In this document: positions 7,572 through 53,503 of the stretch, piece by piece
Layout of the letters: every line of letters starts with the position of its first letter
Position numbering within the stretch: the stretch's first letter is position 1
Position numbers and translations under genes: made by a program
Notes under the pieces: generated by a model
What the model saw: only the letters and a program-made list of their open reading frames with translations
The model's database searches: none
Told to the model about the DNA's origin: nothing
Source of the DNA: a virus
Virus record (IMG/VR): IMGVR_UViG_3300035661_000011
Coordinates: 1 to 64,000 of that record
DNA length: 64,000 nt
Strand: one strand, 5' to 3'

Positions 7572-8315
7572 TTAAGATGGAACGATTGAACGTATGTGTC
7601 TACTGTATGCTGTTTTATCCGCCATGAAACTAATCGGAATATACTCTTTCATTTTATCATTATACATACTAGCTGCATCTGAATAAGATTCAACTAACGC
7701 TTCAATGTAAGGTAAGTCTTCCCCGTTCTTTACAATAGCATTCTTTAATCTAATTCCACCATTTGTATAAATGTACATCTTAGTAGCTAATATAACCGCC
7801 TCGGCTAAAAACGGTAATACCCTTGGGTTTGTATCATTTAAGAAAGAATCGTGCTCTAACACCACTCTCATCGTCATAATTGGCATACCCACATATCCAT
7901 CTAAGTACACTGTGTTTTTACCTACTAGTTGTACTCGTGAATCACCAACTATCATTGGATCTGATACAGCAGAAGCTATAGTTGGTTTAATACTACCAAC
8001 CCCAGCGTAACCATACCCCACATCTAAAACGGACATAATTTCTTTTCCATTAGTGGGACCGTATCCAATCTTATAAATTTGCCCAGTGGTCGTATGTTCC
8101 ACTTTACAACCTTGTACATTTATTTGTTCTTCTTTACCAGCTGTAACATTCATATCCATAATGAGAATGTCTAATATAATCTCCTGTGTTATTCTTGCAT
8201 CTAGTGTAATTGGTACCCCATCATATTTTTGCATCCCTTGTACAAAAATCATGTTTAGTAAGGGTAGTGGTATCTCGCGTTTAATTCGTTGCAACAGATA
8301 GCTTCTATGGTTCAT
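7572..8315 (-). CDS. Unknown protein, 247 aa, possible virion protein
   Basis: Minus-strand gene. The sequence alternates hydrophobic and polar residues with many Gly and Val (VLDVGYGYAGVGSIKP), indicating a beta-rich fold of the kind common in phage structural proteins. No signal peptide, catalytic motif or metal site is seen. It is a single-gene minus-strand unit. Function unknown; a structural role is inferred only from composition. Confidence 0.75.
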   Translation of the reverse strand: MNHRSYLLQRIKREIPLPLLNMIFVQGMQKYDGVPITLDARITQEIILDILIMDMNVTAGKEEQINVQGCKVEHTTTGQIYKIGYGPTNGKEIMSVLDVGYGYAGVGSIKPTIASAVSDPMIVGDSRVQLVGKNTVYLDGYVGMPIMTMRVVLEHDSFLNDTNPRVLPFLAEAVILATKMYIYTNGGIRLKNAIVKNGEDLPYIEALVESYSDAASMYNDKMKEYIPISFMADKTAYSRHIRSIVPS

Positions 8316-8377
8316 AAATGCAGCCTTTAATATTAATGGTACACCACAATAGTGTAGATTGAAAGATTACTTAGGTA

Positions 8378-8387
8378 TATATTATCT
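8378..8387 (+). promoter_or_regulatory. Early-type promoter element TATATTATCT
   Basis: Exact match to the consensus, 54 bases before the small gene at 8441. Confidence 0.65.
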
Positions 8388-8440
8388 ATGTAGTAAAGTA
8401 ATCGACTTTGCTATTTAAACTCATTTAATTGGAGAACACA

Positions 8441-8566
8441 ATGTCAAATACCGAAAATGAAATAGTGGACGCTATCACTGATCCAGAAATACATTTTACT
8501 TTAACTAACCGTCTGTTCGAACTGGAAAAAAGACTTGCTGTTTGCTACGACGCATTTGGCAAATAA
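8441..8566 (+). CDS. Unknown small protein, 41 aa
   Basis: ATG follows TTGGAGAACACA, a good ribosome binding site, and an exact promoter element (8378-8387). The acidic peptide (begins MSNTENEIVDAIT, ends YDAFGK) is mostly helical-looking and has no motif. Its own promoter and ribosome binding site make it a convincing small gene, probably early expressed. The PhuZ gene follows 68 bases on with a separate AAACATTT element. Confidence 0.65.
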   Translation: MSNTENEIVDAITDPEIHFTLTNRLFELEKRLAVCYDAFGK

Positions 8567-8600
8567 CAATTAACTTTACTATGTGCGGGTAACACCGTAT

Positions 8601-8608
8601 AAACATTT
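8601..8608 (+). promoter_or_regulatory. AAACATTT element upstream of the tubulin gene
   Basis: Same word found 15-30 bases before several other starts (147, 4274, 16513, 29742, 33189). Candidate for a second promoter class or translation-leader element. Confidence 0.35.
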
Positions 8609-8634
8609 TAACAATAAACAAAGGAAATATTACC

Positions 8635-11203: not shown

Positions 11204-13480
11204 ATGTTACACAATCGAGATTTATTTATACAAGCGCCAGAATGTTACAATAGAAACTTAGATATCCTAGAGGAATCTATACAGACGTATGCTCATTTTT
11301 TTCACCTTAAGTCTGGTAAACCTATGGCAGACTGCATTGAGTACATACGTAAAAAAACATCAGCTGGTGAAAGGTTTGAATTAAAGCCAATTACACTCAT
11401 GGGTTTGCAACAAGATGAAAATGGTGATAGGGTAGTCGCGCATATAAACTTTCACAAATTTATAAATGCGACAAAACGAAATAGACATATACTCACACCG
11501 AATGTGGCATTATATTTTCATCCTGACGTTAAGCAATCGCCTCTGGTTAAATACATTAAAGGTAAAAAGAAAAAGCGTAAAACAGTTAAACGCGCTGGAC
11601 AGATTGCTGAGCAACTTGGTAACTATGAAGAGTTTGCGATTAACAATAACTTAGAGTACGCTATTAAGATTTTAACTAACAGTCTATCTGGTGCTCACGC
11701 ATCTAAATACAACCCACTATGGAACGAATCCGCACATAGTACACTCACTTCAATCTCTAGGGTGTTTGTATCGTATTCTAATGCCAGCACTGAACGTTTC
11801 CTTATGGGTAATAGACATTACTGGTCTAAGGATGTCGTGTTAGAAAATATTTTAACAATTACTCGTAACACAAACTACGTTGCGCTAAAACAAATCGTTG
11901 ATAAATATAATTTACACGTTCCAACTACTGACGAAGTAATGGAAATGATAGAACGGTCAACTACGTTCTACTGGTATAGTCAACAACAGCTACTGGATAT
12001 TAGACATCTAGTTAGTAAACTGAGTAGACTACAAATGGTAGCGTTTTTGTATACTGGTGATTTCTATAGCTTGTACACGTTAAATGATACTTTTGTAAGG
12101 GTGTTCTTAGATGACCTAATGACAGTTCGTAACGTTATCGACAACTATACAGATGTTAACTTAGACGATATTGTTGCAGGTACAAATACAGGTATTGCTT
12201 CATTGGCTTGTATCTACTGTATGGAGTTCTTAAAAGGCTCTATGGTAACTAAGGTAAAAGTTGAATCTCCAGAAAACTACAGAGTGTACGTTAATACGAT
12301 TTTACATATCGAGTTAACTCTGTTGAAATATGAAGATTTGTTAGTGACATTGTACCGTACTGAAAACTTACCCTCTTCAATATTTTCGTTTCCATCATCT
12401 ATCCGTAGAGCTGTTATTGGGTCAGATACCGATTCTGTAATGTATACTGTTCAACAACAAGTAATCTGGAAATACGGTAGATTAGAATTAGGACCTGATA
12501 CGCCTAAATTCTCAAATACAATATCGTTTCTTAACAACATGGTAGTTGACCACTGTTTAGTTGTTGTTGGTAAACAAATGGGAGTGGCTGATTCTGAGTT
12601 ACTTACATTAAGAATGAAGAATGAGTTTGAGTTCTACGTTTATATGCGTGCAAATAGAGCTAAACACTATGCAACATTAATGACATCTAAAGAGGGACTG
12701 GTATTTAGTAAACCTAGGTCTGAAATTAAAGGTGTTGGATTAAAAGATTCAAAGATACCAAAGTTTGTTATGAGTTCATTAGATGATGAACTTGTAAAGA
12801 TTATGACTCTCTTATCTAACGATGGTACAATTGAAGCGTTTCCGGTTATGCAAAGAATTGCTAACTTTGAACATTTGATTTATCAGTCTTTATTGAAAGG
12901 TGACATTACATATTTAGTCGGTGTGAATATAAACACAAAAGAGGGGTATAAAAACCCTATGTCGAGTAACTATTTACATTACAAATTGTGGACTGAAGTG
13001 TTTGCTCCAATATTTGGTAATATTTCAGAACCTCCATATCGTGCGGTTAAGGTTTCAACTGTAGTTGGTAAAAAGAAGTTATTTGCAGAATGGTTGGCTA
13101 CTGCTGAGAAACATATAGCAGAGCCTCTAATGGCGTGGATGGCAGAGAATAATAAAGATTGTTTTAAGCAGATACTACTTCCGTTAGAAATCGTCGCTGG
13201 TGGCGTTCCTAAGGAGTTTTTATCTATGTTAGATTTACGTAGTACAGTGGCAGACATATCGGCCGGATATTACATAGTCTTGGAAATGATGGGGTTCTAT
13301 TTTGATAACGTTCATAACACACAGCTAGTATCAGATAGAATGCCGTATCGTGAGGAGTTTGGTTTACCAGGCGGTAGAACGATCGAAAGCATTATTGGTG
13401 TCGGGATGGAAGTAGATGACGATGAAGAAGATGTCTTTGCTGAATTTACTGAAGTAGAAGAACTGGAAGAAGAAGACTAA
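11204..13480 (+). CDS. Family B DNA polymerase, C-terminal piece (palm motifs B and C, thumb)
   Basis: Replicative polymerase fragment of 758 aa. Seen here: motif B as KILTNSLSG (K155, N159, G163), where the family pattern is KxxxNSxYG and the tyrosine is replaced by serine; motif C as GSDTDS (catalytic aspartates D408 and D410); and a KKRY-like MRANRAKHYATLM about 75 residues later, which in family B binds the primer strand. There is no exonuclease domain and no motif A (DxxSLYPS) in this protein. Those are found at 53555-54934 and 52486-53503, so the enzyme must assemble from three chains. The C-terminus is very acidic (EVDDDEEDVF, EELEEED). A reading frame shifted by one base continues acidic coding-like sequence for about 28 residues past the stop. 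Confidence 0.88.
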   Translation: MLHNRDLFIQAPECYNRNLDILEESIQTYAHFFHLKSGKPMADCIEYIRKKTSAGERFELKPITLMGLQQDENGDRVVAHINFHKFINATKRNRHILTPNVALYFHPDVKQSPLVKYIKGKKKKRKTVKRAGQIAEQLGNYEEFAINNNLEYAIKILTNSLSGAHASKYNPLWNESAHSTLTSISRVFVSYSNASTERFLMGNRHYWSKDVVLENILTITRNTNYVALKQIVDKYNLHVPTTDEVMEMIERSTTFYWYSQQQLLDIRHLVSKLSRLQMVAFLYTGDFYSLYTLNDTFVRVFLDDLMTVRNVIDNYTDVNLDDIVAGTNTGIASLACIYCMEFLKGSMVTKVKVESPENYRVYVNTILHIELTLLKYEDLLVTLYRTENLPSSIFSFPSSIRRAVIGSDTDSVMYTVQQQVIWKYGRLELGPDTPKFSNTISFLNNMVVDHCLVVVGKQMGVADSELLTLRMKNEFEFYVYMRANRAKHYATLMTSKEGLVFSKPRSEIKGVGLKDSKIPKFVMSSLDDELVKIMTLLSNDGTIEAFPVMQRIANFEHLIYQSLLKGDITYLVGVNINTKEGYKNPMSSNYLHYKLWTEVFAPIFGNISEPPYRAVKVSTVVGKKKLFAEWLATAEKHIAEPLMAWMAENNKDCFKQILLPLEIVAGGVPKEFLSMLDLRSTVADISAGYYIVLEMMGFYFDNVHNTQLVSDRMPYREEFGLPGGRTIESIIGVGMEVDDDEEDVFAEFTEVEELEEED

Positions 13481-13828
13481 GTGATGATGACTGGGAAGAT
13501 TCTATTGAAGAAAGAGATTGGTATTTTCGATTACAACAAATTATTATGGGGTTACAAACATGGGAATAGTTAACAGAGAATACTTTTTAAACCCGTCTGT
13601 AAAAACACTGTAATTTAGTTTATCGTGTGTTTACAGAGTCGTTAGCTGTTATCTTAGAGTGTCAATTACGTCATTAGGGTTTTTCCTAATGACGTAACGA
13701 AATATAACTTTTTAAAACATTGGTGTAGGAGTTAGAAAGTGGTTGGCGTACGCATATTCGCCAGTCGAGATACCTTAATTCGTTTGTGATAGACACCCAC
13801 TGGTATTAATACCAGTGGGTGTCTATCA
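13481..13828. other. Gene-free interval with large hairpins
   Basis: No convincing gene. It holds the frame-shifted continuation of the polymerase tail (to about 13571), distant 7-bp arms CTGTAAA/TTTACAG around 13600-13636, a perfect 13-bp hairpin at 13666-13697 with a T-containing loop, TGGCG/CGCCA near 13743-13762, and the big terminator at 13786. Confidence 0.5.
13666..13697. terminator. 13-bp perfect hairpin, probable terminator
   Basis: Arms 13666-13678 and 13685-13697, loop of G and T only; lies 185 bases after the polymerase stop. Confidence 0.5.
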
Positions 13829-13829
13829 C
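13786..13829. terminator. Bidirectional terminator between convergent genes
   Basis: Perfect 44-base palindrome (22-bp arms) at the 3' end of the minus-strand gene; among the longest in the window. Confidence 0.8.
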
Positions 13830-14893
13830 TATATGTTTTCAAAGAACTCTTTTATTTTTTTGTACTTTACAAGTGTGGAATCTAACATTCCAGGGCTCAT
13901 GTGTGTAAGTCTACTATGGTCGTTTACAAACCTATCCACCTTGTGCAATATAGTTACTGCATTGGTTGTATTCCCTTTACTGTTATCCACCATAAAAGTT
14001 AATGGAAATGCCCAATTGACAAACGTATAGAACATTACCCAATACGTATAACTGTTTGATGAACCAATGCACATTGGCATTGCTGTTAAATAATCTGGAC
14101 TGTAGATTAACGGTATTTCAGAGAGTCCTTTAATGTAAGGTTTATTACTAGTCTTAATGCTCGAAATAATCGTTTTAAGCGGTTTTTCAATCACACCCTC
14201 ATAACCTATCACAAAACTTCTTTCGTGTCTCTCATAAGGCATAGGCTCACGATTTACGATATAATAGAGTCTGTTCCTAACTGCAATGTCGATGTACTCA
14301 TTCACTAACCCTGGAATCACCCATTTCATAATGAAATCCACTAAGTTATCCCTATCGGTTTCAGGTAGTAACATTTGTGCGTTATTCCACTGCTGTAATT
14401 GATACGCAAATAGTGGTAAGTCAATTCCAATAACTGAGAAGTTTCCATTGTCTTTGATATCTACACCTAGTGGTGCTATGAATATTTCCATAGATGTAAA
14501 CGGATGGTCTAAGACTCGTAAAGCTCTTATCTTATCCCAAGGTACATCTGTAAACTGATCGTCGAACGTAGTGGCTATTACGGCACTATTTTCGGTATAT
14601 ATGAACTTAGGGTGTAACTTACCAAATCCGTTACGATTAGTAATAGCTAATGGGTTACATATTTTATCTAACGAATTATCAACAGTTCCATATATATCGT
14701 TTAGTGCCATATACGGTGATAAAACATAACACAGTTTTATCAGGAGATGGTTACTTGATAATGTCCCACCTGACATTCGGTGTAATGAATTTTGGTAATC
14801 TACTCGTTCAGAGATTAAGTCCCTTAACCTTGGTAGCTGGCTGGAAACTAATGTTCCGGTATTCGCAATAGACCTCGTAAATAATCGGTACAT
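13829..14893 (-). CDS. Unknown protein, 354 aa, possible virion protein
   Basis: The start is set at 14893 (MYRLFTRS) because a strong AGGAGGG site lies 6 bases upstream; a longer frame from 14914 would place that site inside the gene. Mixed alpha/beta composition, no signal peptide, with a hydrophobic aromatic stretch near residue 290 (YTYWVMFYTFVNWAFPLTFMV) that might be membrane-associated. No catalytic motif. Stand-alone minus-strand unit as for 5202 and 7572. Function unknown. Confidence 0.75.
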   Translation of the reverse strand: MYRLFTRSIANTGTLVSSQLPRLRDLISERVDYQNSLHRMSGGTLSSNHLLIKLCYVLSPYMALNDIYGTVDNSLDKICNPLAITNRNGFGKLHPKFIYTENSAVIATTFDDQFTDVPWDKIRALRVLDHPFTSMEIFIAPLGVDIKDNGNFSVIGIDLPLFAYQLQQWNNAQMLLPETDRDNLVDFIMKWVIPGLVNEYIDIAVRNRLYYIVNREPMPYERHERSFVIGYEGVIEKPLKTIISSIKTSNKPYIKGLSEIPLIYSPDYLTAMPMCIGSSNSYTYWVMFYTFVNWAFPLTFMVDNSKGNTTNAVTILHKVDRFVNDHSRLTHMSPGMLDSTLVKYKKIKEFFENI

Positions 14894-14944
14894 AAACCCT
14901 CCTAATAATGACACAGGATTAGAAACTGAACTAAGTGTGAAGCA

Positions 14945-14954
14945 TATATCATCT
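14945..14954 (+). promoter_or_regulatory. Early-type promoter element TATATCATCT
   Basis: Lies in the divergent gap, 53 bases before the start at 15007. Confidence 0.55.
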
Positions 14955-15006: not shown

Positions 15007-15513
15007 ATGGCACATTACAAAGGTGAGCCAACACGTCCCAAGAAACAAGCTGTTAGAGTTACGTACACTGGATACGATATCTTCCTTTGGAAATCAGATA
15101 CTGATGAAGGAATGTATTATTACAACTCTTTAAACTTTAGATCACATTGTGAACTGTCTGCTAAAGTTGTAGCTAAGATTGCTTTAGCTTTAAGTCGGTT
15201 CCCTGAAAGATTCTCACTGGGTGTGCAGATTACATTTAAGTGTTACCCAAGGTTTGCCACTGGAACCGTTACACACGTGTACGACACTGTGGATTACATG
15301 GTTTGTAAAAATAGTGTCTTGGAAGATGGTAGTGAATGGAAGTCAATTCAAAGTTTACTAAATGGATGTTTAGATGAACAAAGTTTTGATAAGTTCGATA
15401 TCGTTAGAAAAGAATACAAAGGTGTCATTGGTAAACTAACTCCATTGACTAATCCATTATCTTTTACAAGACTTCGTGGTCATGAACCAAAGTCTTTATT
15501 TGTTACAATTTGA
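15007..15513 (+). CDS. Unknown protein, 168 aa
   Basis: ATG follows TAGGAGATTAA, a strong site, and a promoter element at 14945. Basic N-terminus (RPKKQAVRVTY), then strand-rich sequence; no domain recognised. A basic small protein behind an early-type promoter could act on nucleic acid or on the host, but nothing in the sequence shows this. Confidence 0.75.
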   Translation: MAHYKGEPTRPKKQAVRVTYTGYDIFLWKSDTDEGMYYYNSLNFRSHCELSAKVVAKIALALSRFPERFSLGVQITFKCYPRFATGTVTHVYDTVDYMVCKNSVLEDGSEWKSIQSLLNGCLDEQSFDKFDIVRKEYKGVIGKLTPLTNPLSFTRLRGHEPKSLFVTI

Positions 15514-15639
15514 ATTTGATTCATTTGAATGTTTCCATTGTGTATTTATTTTTTTATTACCTTAACTATAGTGTGTAGTATCCTTTATAAACCCCCTGTA
15601 ACCCTAGTACCCTATCTGTCTAAACAATCTAAAATATCA

Positions 15640-16020
15640 TAGTAATATGGGGCGTAGCCCCCAAAGAAAATACTTAGTAATAACTATACAGATGCAGAAT
15701 CATTAGATTCTGCATCTGCTATTACGTTTGAGATTAGTTTAAGCTTGTAATCTAATAGTCAACACTCCTTCAGTGAAAGCATAGTCTTTCACTTACATTA
15801 GCAGTATTCCTTCAGTGTTCTTAAAGAAGGAATTACTTGTTACTATACGAATGCAACAAAGCATTCGTTAAAGTGATAACTGGTAAATGTAAATATTGAA
15901 TTAGAGAGTGTTAGGAGCTAACTTAACTATAGTTAGATTGGAAATAGTAAATGGTACAGTGGACACCTGTGTTAGTAGAAACACTGTTATATGACGAGTT
16001 GGGAAAATAGAGATATTTTC
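15640..16020 (+). ncRNA. Hairpin array, possible structured noncoding RNA or long leader
   Basis: No gene fits here, yet perfect stem-loops follow one another: GGGGC/GCCCC (15649-15661); 12-bp arms 15690-15701/15706-15717 with loop ATTA, enclosed by GTAATA/TATTAC (15677-15725); AGATTA/TAATCT (15731-15753); GTGAAAG/CTTTCAC (15773-15792); ATTCCTTC/GAAGGAAT (15806-15833); ACGAATGC/GCATTCGT (15847-15868); GTTAG/CTAAC (15910-15922); a 12-base palindrome (15924-15935); GTGTT/AACAC (15969-15984); GAAAATA/TATTTTC with loop GAGA (16003-16020). None is followed by a T-run. The strand is assumed from the flanking plus genes. Confidence 0.5.
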
Positions 16021-16074
16021 AAAGTAAGAATTGGTAGAAGAGAAATTTAATAAGTAATTTACTGGAGTAGTATT

Positions 16075-16458
16075 ATGACAAATATAAAGAACGATACACG
16101 ACTTACATTTAAATCATTTAATGATTTTTATAGAACGGTCAAGGTAGTGACTATGTACGATAACACATATCGTGGTGTGGTTATTAATGGAACTGGGACT
16201 TTGTTCTTTTCAGATGAAGAAAACTTTCATATTGAACTACTTAAGGATAAAGTTCTTAAGAGTAAACATTTAGTTGGAGTTAGATACTATTACGATACTG
16301 TTGATAAAGGTATTGAGAACACAGGTGTATTCATAATAGATTTAATGTCGGGGTTGTTTTTGGAAGATACTGGTAAGTGGGAATGTGTTTATGGTGTTGT
16401 TAGTGACAAATACGAATTGAGAGAGGATGGTAGTGTGATTAAAGTAATTAAAGGGTAG
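16075..16458 (+). CDS. Unknown protein, 127 aa
   Basis: ATG behind a TACTGGAGTAG site, directly after the hairpin array, which may form its 5' leader. Strand-rich small protein (GVVINGTGTLFFSDEENF), charged, no motif. Function unknown. Confidence 0.7.
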   Translation: MTNIKNDTRLTFKSFNDFYRTVKVVTMYDNTYRGVVINGTGTLFFSDEENFHIELLKDKVLKSKHLVGVRYYYDTVDKGIENTGVFIIDLMSGLFLEDTGKWECVYGVVSDKYELREDGSVIKVIKG

Positions 16459-19056: not shown

Positions 19057-19075
19057 CCCATCCATCTTTTAAACA

Positions 19076-19085
19076 TATATTATCT
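19076..19085 (+). promoter_or_regulatory. Early-type promoter element TATATTATCT upstream of the candidate chimallin gene
   Basis: Exact consensus in the context AAACATATATTATCTA, 153 bases before the start codon. Early expression would fit the nuclear-shell protein, which must appear minutes after infection. Confidence 0.65.
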
Positions 19086-19142
19086 AAGTGAGTTAGATAC
19101 AATTTAACTCACTGTTTTATATTTGGAGGTGTTAAATAAAAA

Positions 19143-19211
19143 AATATTACAGATATCAATAATCTGTAAAGGGTGTTACACTCACTTATCGAAAGGTAAG
19201 TGTATTTCATA
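19143..19211 (+). promoter_or_regulatory. Structured 5' leader of the candidate chimallin mRNA
   Basis: Two perfect hairpins lie between promoter and start: TTACAGAT/ATCTGTAA at about 19147-19169 and CACTTA/TAAGTG at about 19183-19202. A separate TTTGGAGGTG site occurs upstream (about 19122) without a start codon. The leader could stabilise or control a highly made mRNA. Confidence 0.45.
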
Positions 19212-19238
19212 TTAATAATTTTTAGAGGTTAAAAAAAC

Positions 19239-21197
19239 ATGAGCAATGAATTAATTGATGAACCGACTGTAGCTTCTGCTGCTAGAAGACCACAACCAGG
19301 TGCAAAACAAACCCAACAAAGACAACCGCCGCCAATATCACCTGGCACACGGAGAAACACAAACAGTTTATTTGGTGCTGCAATGAGCGGTAACCGCCAG
19401 TCAGCAGATATGGGTGAGATCCACGAATCGTTTAGTGCGCTTTGCACGGGCTATTTTGCTACCACTGGTGTTTCTGTGGAGGCTATTGCATTTGATGACA
19501 TATCGCTTCTAATTCCTGCGGAAATGTTAGTGGTGCGGGAAGGTAATCGTTTATACGTTGGCGTATTCCTGATTTCACATCTTCTGCGTGCACAGATTCC
19601 AGACTTTGTAGAGCGCGGTGGCTATGGTCGTGAAATTGTACTTCCCCAAACCGAAGAGTCTTTGTGGACATCTCCAATTATGCAAGAGCGTGCATATGCA
19701 CTGTTAGCAAGAACATACTTTGCTGACAAAAACTACTCGATGCAAGAGCTTGAAAAGCTGATTATTATTTCCAGCGTACAAAGACTATCTCCAACTAAAC
19801 GTTACATCACCACAGCTGATTGCGAAGTACCATTCGACCATGCAATGGCTTCAATTTTAGCATTTATCAAATTGTCGCGTGGCGAAGGTACATCTCTGTT
19901 TACAGCAGATGATTTGCGTGATGCAGGTTACACAATGGCTGTGCGTCACAAAATTAATCCAACTGGAATGTCTACGAACACCTATGGGGAACCTATGGCG
20001 TGTGACATCGAGTTGACATTAGTGGCGCGGTCACAAAAGCGACCAGATTCTTTGCATCAAACAGAGATTGACCAAATTCTTTGTCAAGTTAGTTTGACTA
20101 TTGATTTCTTACCTATGAAACCAGGTAGTGAAGTTATCCGTCTATCTAATCGTCAAGAAGCACATCCGTTAGTAGTTCCAGTGTTTATTATTCGCCAAGC
20201 CACAACGGTATCATTAGGAACAACTAATAACGATTCTTTCTTAACGCAGATTTTGGCGTTAAGTATGGTCAAAGCGTATTCGGAAGATCCACAACGTTGG
20301 GGTCAGTTGTTTGAACCTGGAACTATGTCGAACTGCATTAACAACATTGGGTTACTTGGTAAACTAGGTGACCCAAATCCAGTGTCAAACGAAATCCCAG
20401 GCGTAGTTACAATCTTGCCACGCGGTTCATATTCAACTGAACCCAAAACCAAAACAGTTATTCAGATGATCGAAGAATACTGTTCGCAAACGCCAATTAT
20501 TGCGATGGACGTCGCTCGTGCAGGCCCTATGCAATATATTCAGGAATTGTTTACGTATACAGATGCTGAAAATTTGGTTAACACCGAACTATCCTCATTT
20601 GTTATGGAATACAATGAAGCGGCTGGTACTCATGAAATCGATAAAGATGCATTCTTCAGATTCTGGCAAACTGAATTTGGCGGTCCATCCAAGTCACCAA
20701 TCTTCGACCCTAACCATGATTTACAAGGTCATGTGGATCAATGGGAAGGTACGTTTGTTGGTAGCGACCATTTGTTACATGACATCCATGAAGTTGACTT
20801 GTTGGCGTTTCTATACGACGATAACGTAAGTGAAGAATCTCTAGCTAAGTACGCCAATTGTAGTATCCCATCTGACAATTCTTTGCTGGATTTGGACAAC
20901 CGATTACAGTTGATTACAGGTATCTTACCACACCGTACAATCACCGGTAAGTCAATGCGGTATTTCTACAACCCTCACTTTCTATATGTGGTTGACCGCT
21001 ACTTGACAAACTACGGCGTTGGATTTGAATTGGATGAAAGTATGTTGCATGTTCGTAGCTCATTCGGTTTGAACCGCGATTACTTGTTGGAGGGTAATGA
21101 GCAATCGTCTGCATTCCGTGCAGCTGGAATTCGTCGCGGTGATACACGCGGCAGTGACCAGTTCCAACCAATGAACAGTCGTAAAAGATTCTACTAA
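19239..21197 (+). CDS. chmA: Probable chimallin (ChmA), phage nuclear-shell protein
   Basis: ChmA tiles into a single-layer lattice that encloses the replicating genome and excludes host nucleases. The case here is by context and form: 652 aa (ChmA of 201phi2-1 and Goslar are about 630 aa), a disordered Pro/Gln/Arg-rich N-terminal tail (about 1-50: QPGAKQTQQRQPPPISPGTRR), a large mixed domain, and a flexible Arg/Ser-rich C-terminus (GSDQFQPMNSRKRFY). This matches the flexible tails that tie ChmA subunits together. It has an early-type promoter, a structured leader, base composition richer in GC than neighbours (high expression), its own terminator, an RNA polymerase gene directly downstream, and PhuZ in the same genome. 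I cannot align it to known ChmA without a search. Alternative: an abundant virion protein. Confidence 0.65.
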   Translation: MSNELIDEPTVASAARRPQPGAKQTQQRQPPPISPGTRRNTNSLFGAAMSGNRQSADMGEIHESFSALCTGYFATTGVSVEAIAFDDISLLIPAEMLVVREGNRLYVGVFLISHLLRAQIPDFVERGGYGREIVLPQTEESLWTSPIMQERAYALLARTYFADKNYSMQELEKLIIISSVQRLSPTKRYITTADCEVPFDHAMASILAFIKLSRGEGTSLFTADDLRDAGYTMAVRHKINPTGMSTNTYGEPMACDIELTLVARSQKRPDSLHQTEIDQILCQVSLTIDFLPMKPGSEVIRLSNRQEAHPLVVPVFIIRQATTVSLGTTNNDSFLTQILALSMVKAYSEDPQRWGQLFEPGTMSNCINNIGLLGKLGDPNPVSNEIPGVVTILPRGSYSTEPKTKTVIQMIEEYCSQTPIIAMDVARAGPMQYIQELFTYTDAENLVNTELSSFVMEYNEAAGTHEIDKDAFFRFWQTEFGGPSKSPIFDPNHDLQGHVDQWEGTFVGSDHLLHDIHEVDLLAFLYDDNVSEESLAKYANCSIPSDNSLLDLDNRLQLITGILPHRTITGKSMRYFYNPHFLYVVDRYLTNYGVGFELDESMLHVRSSFGLNRDYLLEGNEQSSAFRAAGIRRGDTRGSDQFQPMNSRKRFY

Positions 21198-51398: not shown

Positions 51399-52435
51399 AT
51401 GTATAAGCCAATATCTGGCAATGAAGAGTATAAAATAAACAAAGGTGGTGTAGTTGTAGACTGTAATAATAGAGTGTGTTTACTACCTATGTTAGAAGAT
51501 AAGGTAGGAATACACCTATATGGCGTTCTAAGGCACGTTTACTTAGATTGGCTGTCTCCGTATGCCTTTTATGAAACACGTCTACCAGAGCACCTAAAAC
51601 ATCGTATAAACGATATTTGGTTTAATGAAGAGATAGTAATAAAAGATAAGATAGTAAAAGATAGAATGTATTTTTCTCAACCATTCTATTACAACGATGA
51701 ATTTAGGATAGTTCCTAATTACACAGATTATGCAGTTTCTATAGATGGACGAGTAATTAAAGTAAGTGCAGGGGAACTGTGTAGTCAGCATACTGGAGAT
51801 AATGTATATAGACGGATAACAGTTTGGGCAAAAGATATATCTAGTGATAAAGATTTAACTGTGCATAGACTACTAGCGTTAGCGTGAGTAAAGAATAAAA
51901 ATCCTCGTAAATTTAATGTAGTAAATCATCTAGATGGAGATAAATTAAATAACTACGCTTCTAACTTAGAGTGGACTGATGCTAATGGCAATATGCTACA
52001 TGCTCGTAAAATGGGTTTGTACTCCGATAACACCCAGTGTTAAAGTTTGAGTTAAACTATATTGCACCAGTTAAGACTATACAGGTCTTTAACATAGAAA
52101 CTAAGGAGATTACTACAGCTAAATCAGTTAGAGAGTTATGTCGAGAACTACCACTTAATTTTAGTAGTGTATTAGCGGTGTTAAATAAAGGGGAACAGTA
52201 TGTGTATTCAGGGTATGCGTTTTGGTATACTATAGAAAAAGATTGGGACACTAACTCCATACTACCTAAGTCGATTGGTAAGATAATAACAGCTGTAAAT
52301 AAATTGACTAATGAAATAATGGAATTTAGTTCGGTAAATTCAGCCAGTAGGTATTTTTCCGTAGATAAGAGAAATGTATTGAATAAGTTAAAAACTGGTG
52401 CTTTAATAAATGGATGGTGGTTAGTGGAAAAGTAA
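51399..52435 (+). pseudogene. Decayed HNH homing endonuclease
   Basis: Three stretches of one protein. ATG 51399 to TGA 51885-51887 gives the N-terminal NUMOD4-like part and ends VHRLLALA. The same frame goes on as VKNKNPRKFNVVNHLDGDKLNNYASNLEW, the HNH core (HR...NHxDGxxxNN...NLEW), to a TAA near 52040. The third frame from about 52037 holds two NUMOD1-like DNA-binding repeats (SVRELCRELPLNFSSVLAVL and SVNSASRYFSVDKRNVLNKL). So one nonsense change inside the HNH motif and one frameshift separate them. It lies directly beside the intron-bearing polymerase genes and probably spread with, or as, a homing element. A functional short protein from the first part is unlikely. Confidence 0.88.
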
Positions 52436-52485: not shown

Positions 52486-53503
52486 TTAATTTACATTGCA
52501 CATTTCTTTTTCAAATTCGGCATAAAATACATCTAGTGATGGCATACCATAGCAGGACATAGCTAATGAAACAGGGTTTGCTACGACTGAGGTTAAGTTG
52601 ATACCAATTTCTCTTTGCTGATATTCTTCCAGTCCTTCAATTTTACATAAAACAAAAACATTTGTTCCTTTTGATACATTGCCAATTTCACCACCCGAAG
52701 GATATGCCCCTGTTAAATCTATGTCAGATGCAAATAACATAATGTTAGTTGCCATTTCTGGAAACTCTTTAATTACACATAGTCCAAGTCCTTCTTCTAA
52801 CTCAGCAGCTAAAGTAATGCCTTTTGTCCCATTAGCTCGTTACACTAATGCGGTGTGCTAAGACACCCGCCTACACTCTCGTGTAGGAGCAGATCATATC
52901 ACCATCCTCTGAGATTAACCCAGGTGGGATGTGTACTATTTCTTCCTCATTTTATAACTAGAGGCTCTACACCCAGTTACGGGTTGATCGTTGAACGTTC
53001 TCCATATCACATAGTGACTTAGGAGCTTCGCGGCTGATTGACTCTACCTAATCATTTTCAGACATTCATAGCCTGTTTTCACGGCTATTGTAGTTGATTA
53101 GTCTAACGAGTTATTCCAGCAATTAAGTACATTTTTCATCTACCGATTCCTCGATAGGGGGACCTAAATTATCTGTTAGATAATATTTAATAAAATGAAC
53201 ACCACTTAAACATTCCACTGGTTGACTAAACGCGTAATACACATTGTCAAATTCTACATTGTTCGGATTGCTGTCATGGTACATGGACTTTATATAAACC
53301 CATTGAGATATAGGTACCGATATGTTATATTTACACACCGCAACCAAACTACCATACTCAAACTTACCAACCTCAGGTAAATCTGCGTAACATTTACCGC
53401 CCACACTTATTACAGGTAAAGAAGCATCTTTGTAATACACTTTACCGTTAAAGAATTTTAACCCATACACATTTTCATTTTTATTAAACATAACGAACAC
53501 CAT
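52486..53503 (-). CDS. Family B DNA polymerase, palm motif A piece, split by a group I intron
   Basis: Exon 1 (53503 to about 53125) encodes about 126 residues; exon 2 (about 52835 to 52486) continues NGTKGITLAAELEEGLGLC and then SDIDLTGAYPSG. The last matches palm motif A of family B polymerases (DxxSLYPS), whose first aspartate binds catalytic metal. NINL-type segment GINLTSVVANPVSL and FYAEFEKE follow as in phage family B enzymes. Motif A is absent from the motif B/C protein at 11204, so this chain should complete the active site. Without splicing the frame stops at TAA 53123-53125. ATG 53503 has no clear ribosome binding site. It follows the exonuclease piece by 51 bases. Confidence 0.8.
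52836..53124 (-). ncRNA. Group I intron in the DNA polymerase motif A gene
   Basis: On the minus strand the conserved core is present: Q-like AATCAGCCGCGAAGCTCC, R-like GTTCAACGATCA and S-like GATATGATCTG. Paired elements: P7 GATCA (52985-52989) with TGATC (52892-52896); P6 CTCC/GGAG (53000-53025) capped by TCAC/GTGA; P8 CATCC/GGATG (52903-52931); P9 CCTACAC/GTGTAGG with GAGA loop (52870-52887); a further 5-bp hairpin and CATTAG/CTAATG near the 3' end. About 289 bases, no internal ORF. Both ends are approximate: the 5' site lies near the TAA at 53123, the 3' site just before the frame of exon 2 reopens (52835-52838). Confidence 0.88.

Follow-up and report, generated by a model that had tools for sequence, protein, structure and literature searches.

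What is made by a gene-free stretch of phage DNA packed with perfect hairpins, lying upstream of a gene for a nuclear shell protein? The window analysed here, 64,000 nucleotides from a 154.5-kb IMG/VR virus record (IMGVR_UViG_3300035661_000011), holds such a stretch, which an earlier note had described as an array of about ten hairpins at 15640-16020 that could be a phage noncoding RNA of about 380 bases, a decoy for an RNA-binding protein or a long structured leader of the gene at 16075. To our knowledge, only a handful of noncoding RNAs have been described from phages.

The genome is that of a nucleus-forming, phiKZ-like phage (chimallivirus), because its proteins match a nuclear shell protein, a divergent family B DNA polymerase and, in the product of the 21282 gene, phage multisubunit RNA polymerase subunits (nvRNAP-like), and because it has the chimallivirus gene order; the Chimalliviridae markers (chmA and the two polymerases) are thus all present. 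The order of DNA polymerase, a reversed 361-aa gene ("conv") and chmA is common to the named chimalliviruses and to most of the IMG/VR relatives that were fetched, and the hairpins lie between conv and chmA, with small uncharacterized genes around them. The products of the two adjacent genes, at 15007 and 16075, have no Pfam or PHROGs match. The earlier note had called the array gene-free, and 15514-16074 indeed has no gene, holding only unsupported short ORFs; a short peptide at 15647, MGRSPQRKYLVITIQMQNH, was rejected as a gene since it has no ribosome-binding site, and ARAGORN found no tRNA or tmRNA genes. The landmarks of the locus, which was compared mainly with those of a close relative (L003) and a distant one (L017), are as follows.

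11204-13480: divergent family B DNA polymerase (PF20286 divDNApol, E 5e-191)
14945-14954, + strand: early-type promoter TATATCATCT, upstream of 15007
15007-15513, + strand: upstream neighbour, 168-aa protein of an uncharacterized family, ORF kept in L003
16075-16458, + strand: downstream neighbour, 127-aa protein of an uncharacterized family, ORF kept in L003
19239-21197, + strand: ChmA-like nuclear shell protein (phrog_4795 "nuclear shell protein", E 5.8e-16)

The hairpins of the array are genuine. The stems at 15649-15661, 15677-15682/15720-15725, 15772-15793, 15806-15833 and 15847-15868 are perfectly complementary in the window, as are those at 15910-15922, 15924-15935 and 16003-16020; leaving aside 15731-15753 and 15969-15984, the stems from 15649-15661 to 15924-15935 and that at 16003-16020 are kept in L003 except for one terminal pair and one G-U. 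The fold that we propose consists of the following elements.

15646-15649, + strand: TATG, putative start, a motif of the phiKZ late promoters with its G as +1
15649-15915, + strand: structured-RNA core with proposed 5' end G15649, supported by folding z score, L017 homologue and compensatory pairs
15649-15661, + strand: 5'-terminal hairpin GGGGC-GUA-GCCCC, kept in L003
15677-15725, + strand: P1, a 13-bp hairpin (15689-15718) within an outer stem (15677-15682/15720-15725), kept in L003
15731-15753, + strand: weak hairpin AGATTA/TAATCT, read directly from the sequence, in agreement with the earlier note
15761-15767 with 15906-15912, + strand: closing helix AACACUC with GAGUGUU, RNAalifold consensus of window and L003
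15772-15793, + strand: P2 hairpin AGUGAAAG-CAUAGU-CUUUCACU, covarying in L017
15794-15891, + strand: junction-closing helix, 15794-15805 with 15879-15891, 10 pairs
15806-15833, + strand: P3 hairpin
15838-15878, + strand: P4a stem (15838-15844/15872-15878) bearing P4, partial covariation in L017
15847-15868, + strand: P4 hairpin ACGAAUGC-AACAAA-GCAUUCGU, covarying in L017
15916-16060, + strand: unstructured downstream segment

This arrangement departs from the earlier description in several respects. The stem given at 15690-15717 is present and perfectly complementary, with 13 bp (15689-15718) instead of 12, and that at 15969-15984 is broken in L003. The stems do not form a simple row, as P3 and P4 lie inside a junction closed by longer-range helices, and the stem at 15910-15922 competes with the strand pairing of AACACUC and GAGUGUU. 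Nor does the array reach evenly to 16020, since 15916-16060 folds no better than its shuffles (z +0.6), and the length is nearer 270 bases than 380. The reported lack of T-runs was borne out: the sole run of at least five T in 15514-16075 (15549-15555) lies upstream of the array, in which no GC-rich stem is followed by a T-run in the manner of an intrinsic terminator.

Against dinucleotide shuffles, the core (15649-15915) has a z score of -7.1 on the + strand and -7.3 on the - strand, and 15640-16030 one of -5.3, while both neighbouring genes have values near -1. Dense clusters of perfect hairpins (at least 4 perfect stems of at least 8 bp per 400 nt) are rare: 1.46 Mb of DNA from related phages holds only about eight, of which three occupy the corresponding locus of the window, L017 and a further phage, L018. 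Elsewhere in L018 (15723-16380), five clustered perfect hairpins overlap an ORF of 220 aa, making it a hairpin-packed gene like those that the earlier note mentions.

L003 is 97% identical to the window over 15632-15931, with flanking genes at about 65-90%, a contrast that looks like constraint. By itself this identity is weak evidence, for tracts just as close are found elsewhere between the two phages, which points to recombination: 13902-14311 and 8172-8611 are 96-97% identical in DNA against about 80% for most of the alignment. As other tracts, two of them coding, are equally alike, the 97% identity was rejected as proof of selection. The tracts at 13902-14311 and 8172-8611 probably reflect recent recombination between the window phage and L003. 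In L003, a 467-aa homing-endonuclease-like ORF (13476-14879) interrupts an RNA polymerase subunit gene, and fragments similar to it are found in the window at 51912-51977 and 52824-53094.

The distant relative is more informative. A covariance model with only the window and L003 as input (R1, 15757-15895) found its best other match in 1.45 Mb of chimallivirus DNA at L017:13988-14129 (E 0.17), in a gene-free stretch adjoining conv, that is, at the matching locus and on the expected strand; with filters off and the search confined to a 4.75-kb stretch of L017, the E value was 5.8e-4. The whole-database value is modest, and the match draws extra weight from its locus and from covariation. Sequence-only searches (nhmmer, blastn) gave no relatives beyond L003, and since the sequence-only profile misses the L017 copy, it is the structure that carries the signal. 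Covariation was assessed on three sequences, of which two are 97% alike, and the alignment was fitted to the structure of the model, so that the pair counts lean towards it: 18 of the 43 pairs are doubly changed (compensatory), against an average of 5.9 in shuffles and 1-4 for slid structures, and 96.7% of the alignment cells are paired; none of 500 shuffles reached these values. From the same alignment, RNAalifold derived a nearly identical structure with 19 doubly changed pairs.

Most of the compensatory changes are held by P2 and P4. Five of the eight pairs of P2 are doubly changed in L017 and seven are kept, with an identical G-CAUAG loop and an unchanged stretch before the hairpin, while P4 has six of eight pairs doubly changed and all eight paired. 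The 10 pairs of the junction-closing helix are standard in all sequences with letters there, with two double and four one-sided (G-U) changes; P3 has four double changes, L017 having its outer half only, and P4a shows one double change, one one-sided change and two unpaired. At the position of the 5'-terminal hairpin L017 has GGGGGG-AUA-CCCCCC, and at that of P1 GTATAATCCAC-CTAG-GTGGATTATAC; the partner strand of the closing helix 15761-15767/15906-15912 is absent from it. Every one-sided change involves a G-U pair of the + strand and there are no A-C cells, which favours an RNA made from the + strand. An anti-Shine-Dalgarno role for a conserved ACUCCUU was discarded, as this motif pairs differently in the window and L017. 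The earlier note had made its reading depend on conserved pairing in related phages; pairing is indeed kept in L017 by compensatory change, in support of a phage noncoding RNA. By computation, the modelled secondary structure is thus conserved in three phages at corresponding loci, and a folded RNA is very probably the product of the gene-free stretch. In L017, the P4 hairpin unit is found twice (14053-14118 and 14882-14947), 829 bases apart, with 55 of 66 bases alike and the loop inverted (CAACAA to TTGTTG); between the copies lies a cassette with two short ORFs, rich in hairpins, and an early-type promoter, as if something had been inserted or duplicated into the RNA locus.

How might this RNA be transcribed? 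The early promoters of phiKZ have an AT-rich motif near -10, and its late ones consist of TATG, the G being +1 (PMC7598289, PMC4666361). The TATG at 15646 lies within AATATGGG (15644-15651), and the same letters stand before the first hairpin in the window, L003 and L017; since the motif is short and frequent, with 391 copies on the + strand of the window, it is suggestive only. Twelve exact + strand copies of TATATYATCT are found upstream of genes in the window (6562, 8378, 14945, 19076 before chmA, 24451, 28270, 33156, 40075, 48806, 50352, 51348 and 56452), and these, judged by sequence, probably serve the phage as early (virion RNA polymerase) promoters. The sole early-type promoter of L017 is located 12 bases 3' of the RNA core, before the next gene, which makes an own start the simpler reading there; in the window and L003, the promoter layout is such that the upstream early promoter could equally yield the RNA as part of an mRNA. 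The chmA leader (19072-19238) also holds hairpins (19087-19113 and 19147-19169), seemingly conserved in L003 (9840-9990), and may thus be a structured one.

We propose that, in one clade of nucleus-forming phages, the locus encodes a structured, phage-specific noncoding RNA, made as its own transcript and acting in trans with a protein partner, and we rate the chances of this proposal as about even. The RNA would be some 270 bases long and transcribed from the + strand, or up to about 410 if it reaches the ribosome-binding site of 16075. The non-virion RNA polymerase would start it at TATG with G15649 as +1, so that the transcript would open with its own GC hairpin. In the weakest step, the RNA would act in trans by offering a platform to a protein, of either phage or host, that binds it through the conserved GCAUAG loop and the junction. 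One candidate partner would be ChmC, a chimallivirus RNA-binding protein that is reported to bind phage mRNAs and small RNAs (PMC13282480). It is doubtful, and suggested only tentatively, that we are dealing with a new trans-acting RNA family at the chmA locus of one clade that both starts by the late RNA polymerase and works with the phage nucleus, for example as a ligand of ChmC or of the machinery for export or translation.

The main rival explanation, which we regard as possible rather than probable, is a cis-acting element of the 15007-16075 operon mRNA, controlling 16075 translation as a leader or intercistronic element or directing processing for cistron stability. It fits the shared orientation, the early-type promoter at 14945 before 15007 with no hairpin-plus-T-run terminator in between, and the identity in L003 of 15993-16050, directly before the 16075 ribosome-binding site; however, the segment adjoining 16075 is the unstructured one, and L017 has the core while no relatives of the 15007 or 16075 proteins were found in its locus. 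The RNA is therefore not tied to those genes, and an independent trans-acting RNA is favoured. The earlier suggestion of a leader of 16075 is weakened on the same grounds, and also by the early-type promoter that separates core and next gene in L017.

The perfectly palindromic stems and their gene-free location, together with the duplicated L017 hairpin unit and its inverted loop, would suit an element acting as DNA (an origin of replication, or a site for packaging or recombination) with palindromes that form cruciforms or protein sites, but the wobbles are G-U on one strand only with no A-C cell, and the cumulative GC skew climbs through the site without a turn; we consider such an element improbable. 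The same low probability is given to the view that no functional RNA exists and that the array is a hairpin-rich spacer spread by recombination, its likeness to L017 being chance. Hairpins are abundant in these genomes, and the further 97% tracts shared with L003 mean that identity alone is not constraint, yet L017 has diverged far too much for the recent sharing of a tract, its match lies at the corresponding locus, and 18 pairs are compensated.

Returning to the trans-acting RNA, a second model built from the window, L003 and L017 (R2) finds one copy per genome (G000, G001, G002); in over 75 further loci of chimalliviruses it gives no convincing match. L018, a more distant relative with a DNA polymerase 46% identical, has four perfect hairpins (19788-19967) in the same conv-side gene-free stretch, and MAFFT aligns some of its flanks; it was set aside as a homologue because R1 and R2 fail to recover it, scoring 13.5 bits at another site and 9.0 bits at this one. 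Six pattern matches in other genome contigs score at most 15.5 bits with R2 where scored and were dismissed as chance. The RNA model predicts a 5' end, stems, a strand and a single copy, and if a conserved, branched RNA with its own late start does lie by the nuclear-shell locus, it would help to find out whether RNA, besides protein, is among the parts of the phage nucleus.

Among known systems, the intrinsic terminators of the window phage have 13-20 bp stems and mostly 4-base loops, and P1 has a similar stem with a 4-base loop; in contrast to them, the array has no T-run after any stem, and it has several stems in a branched fold. The ornate RNAs GOLLD, ROOL and OLE (PMC12286853) are also large, structured and noncoding, and partly phage-linked, whereas the window has no match to the Rfam 15 covariance models, these three included, at the gathering threshold, and a relaxed search gave 16.2 bits at best against a gathering score of 38.9. 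Of the jumbo-phage reviews searched by term, one has no match for noncoding RNAs and another mentions those of phiKZ, in a passage that describes no RNA such as this one. For phiKZ, Grad-seq yielded two candidates only, a PHIKZ298 3' UTR RNA of about 100 nt and a 5' UTR-p40 fragment of about 180 nt (PMC8545117), which are likewise structured noncoding RNAs of a nucleus-forming phage. By their description these are two-stem, UTR-derived RNAs beside PHIKZ298 and p40, whereas the RNA of the window is larger and branched, lies beside the conv-chmA locus and apparently has its own start.
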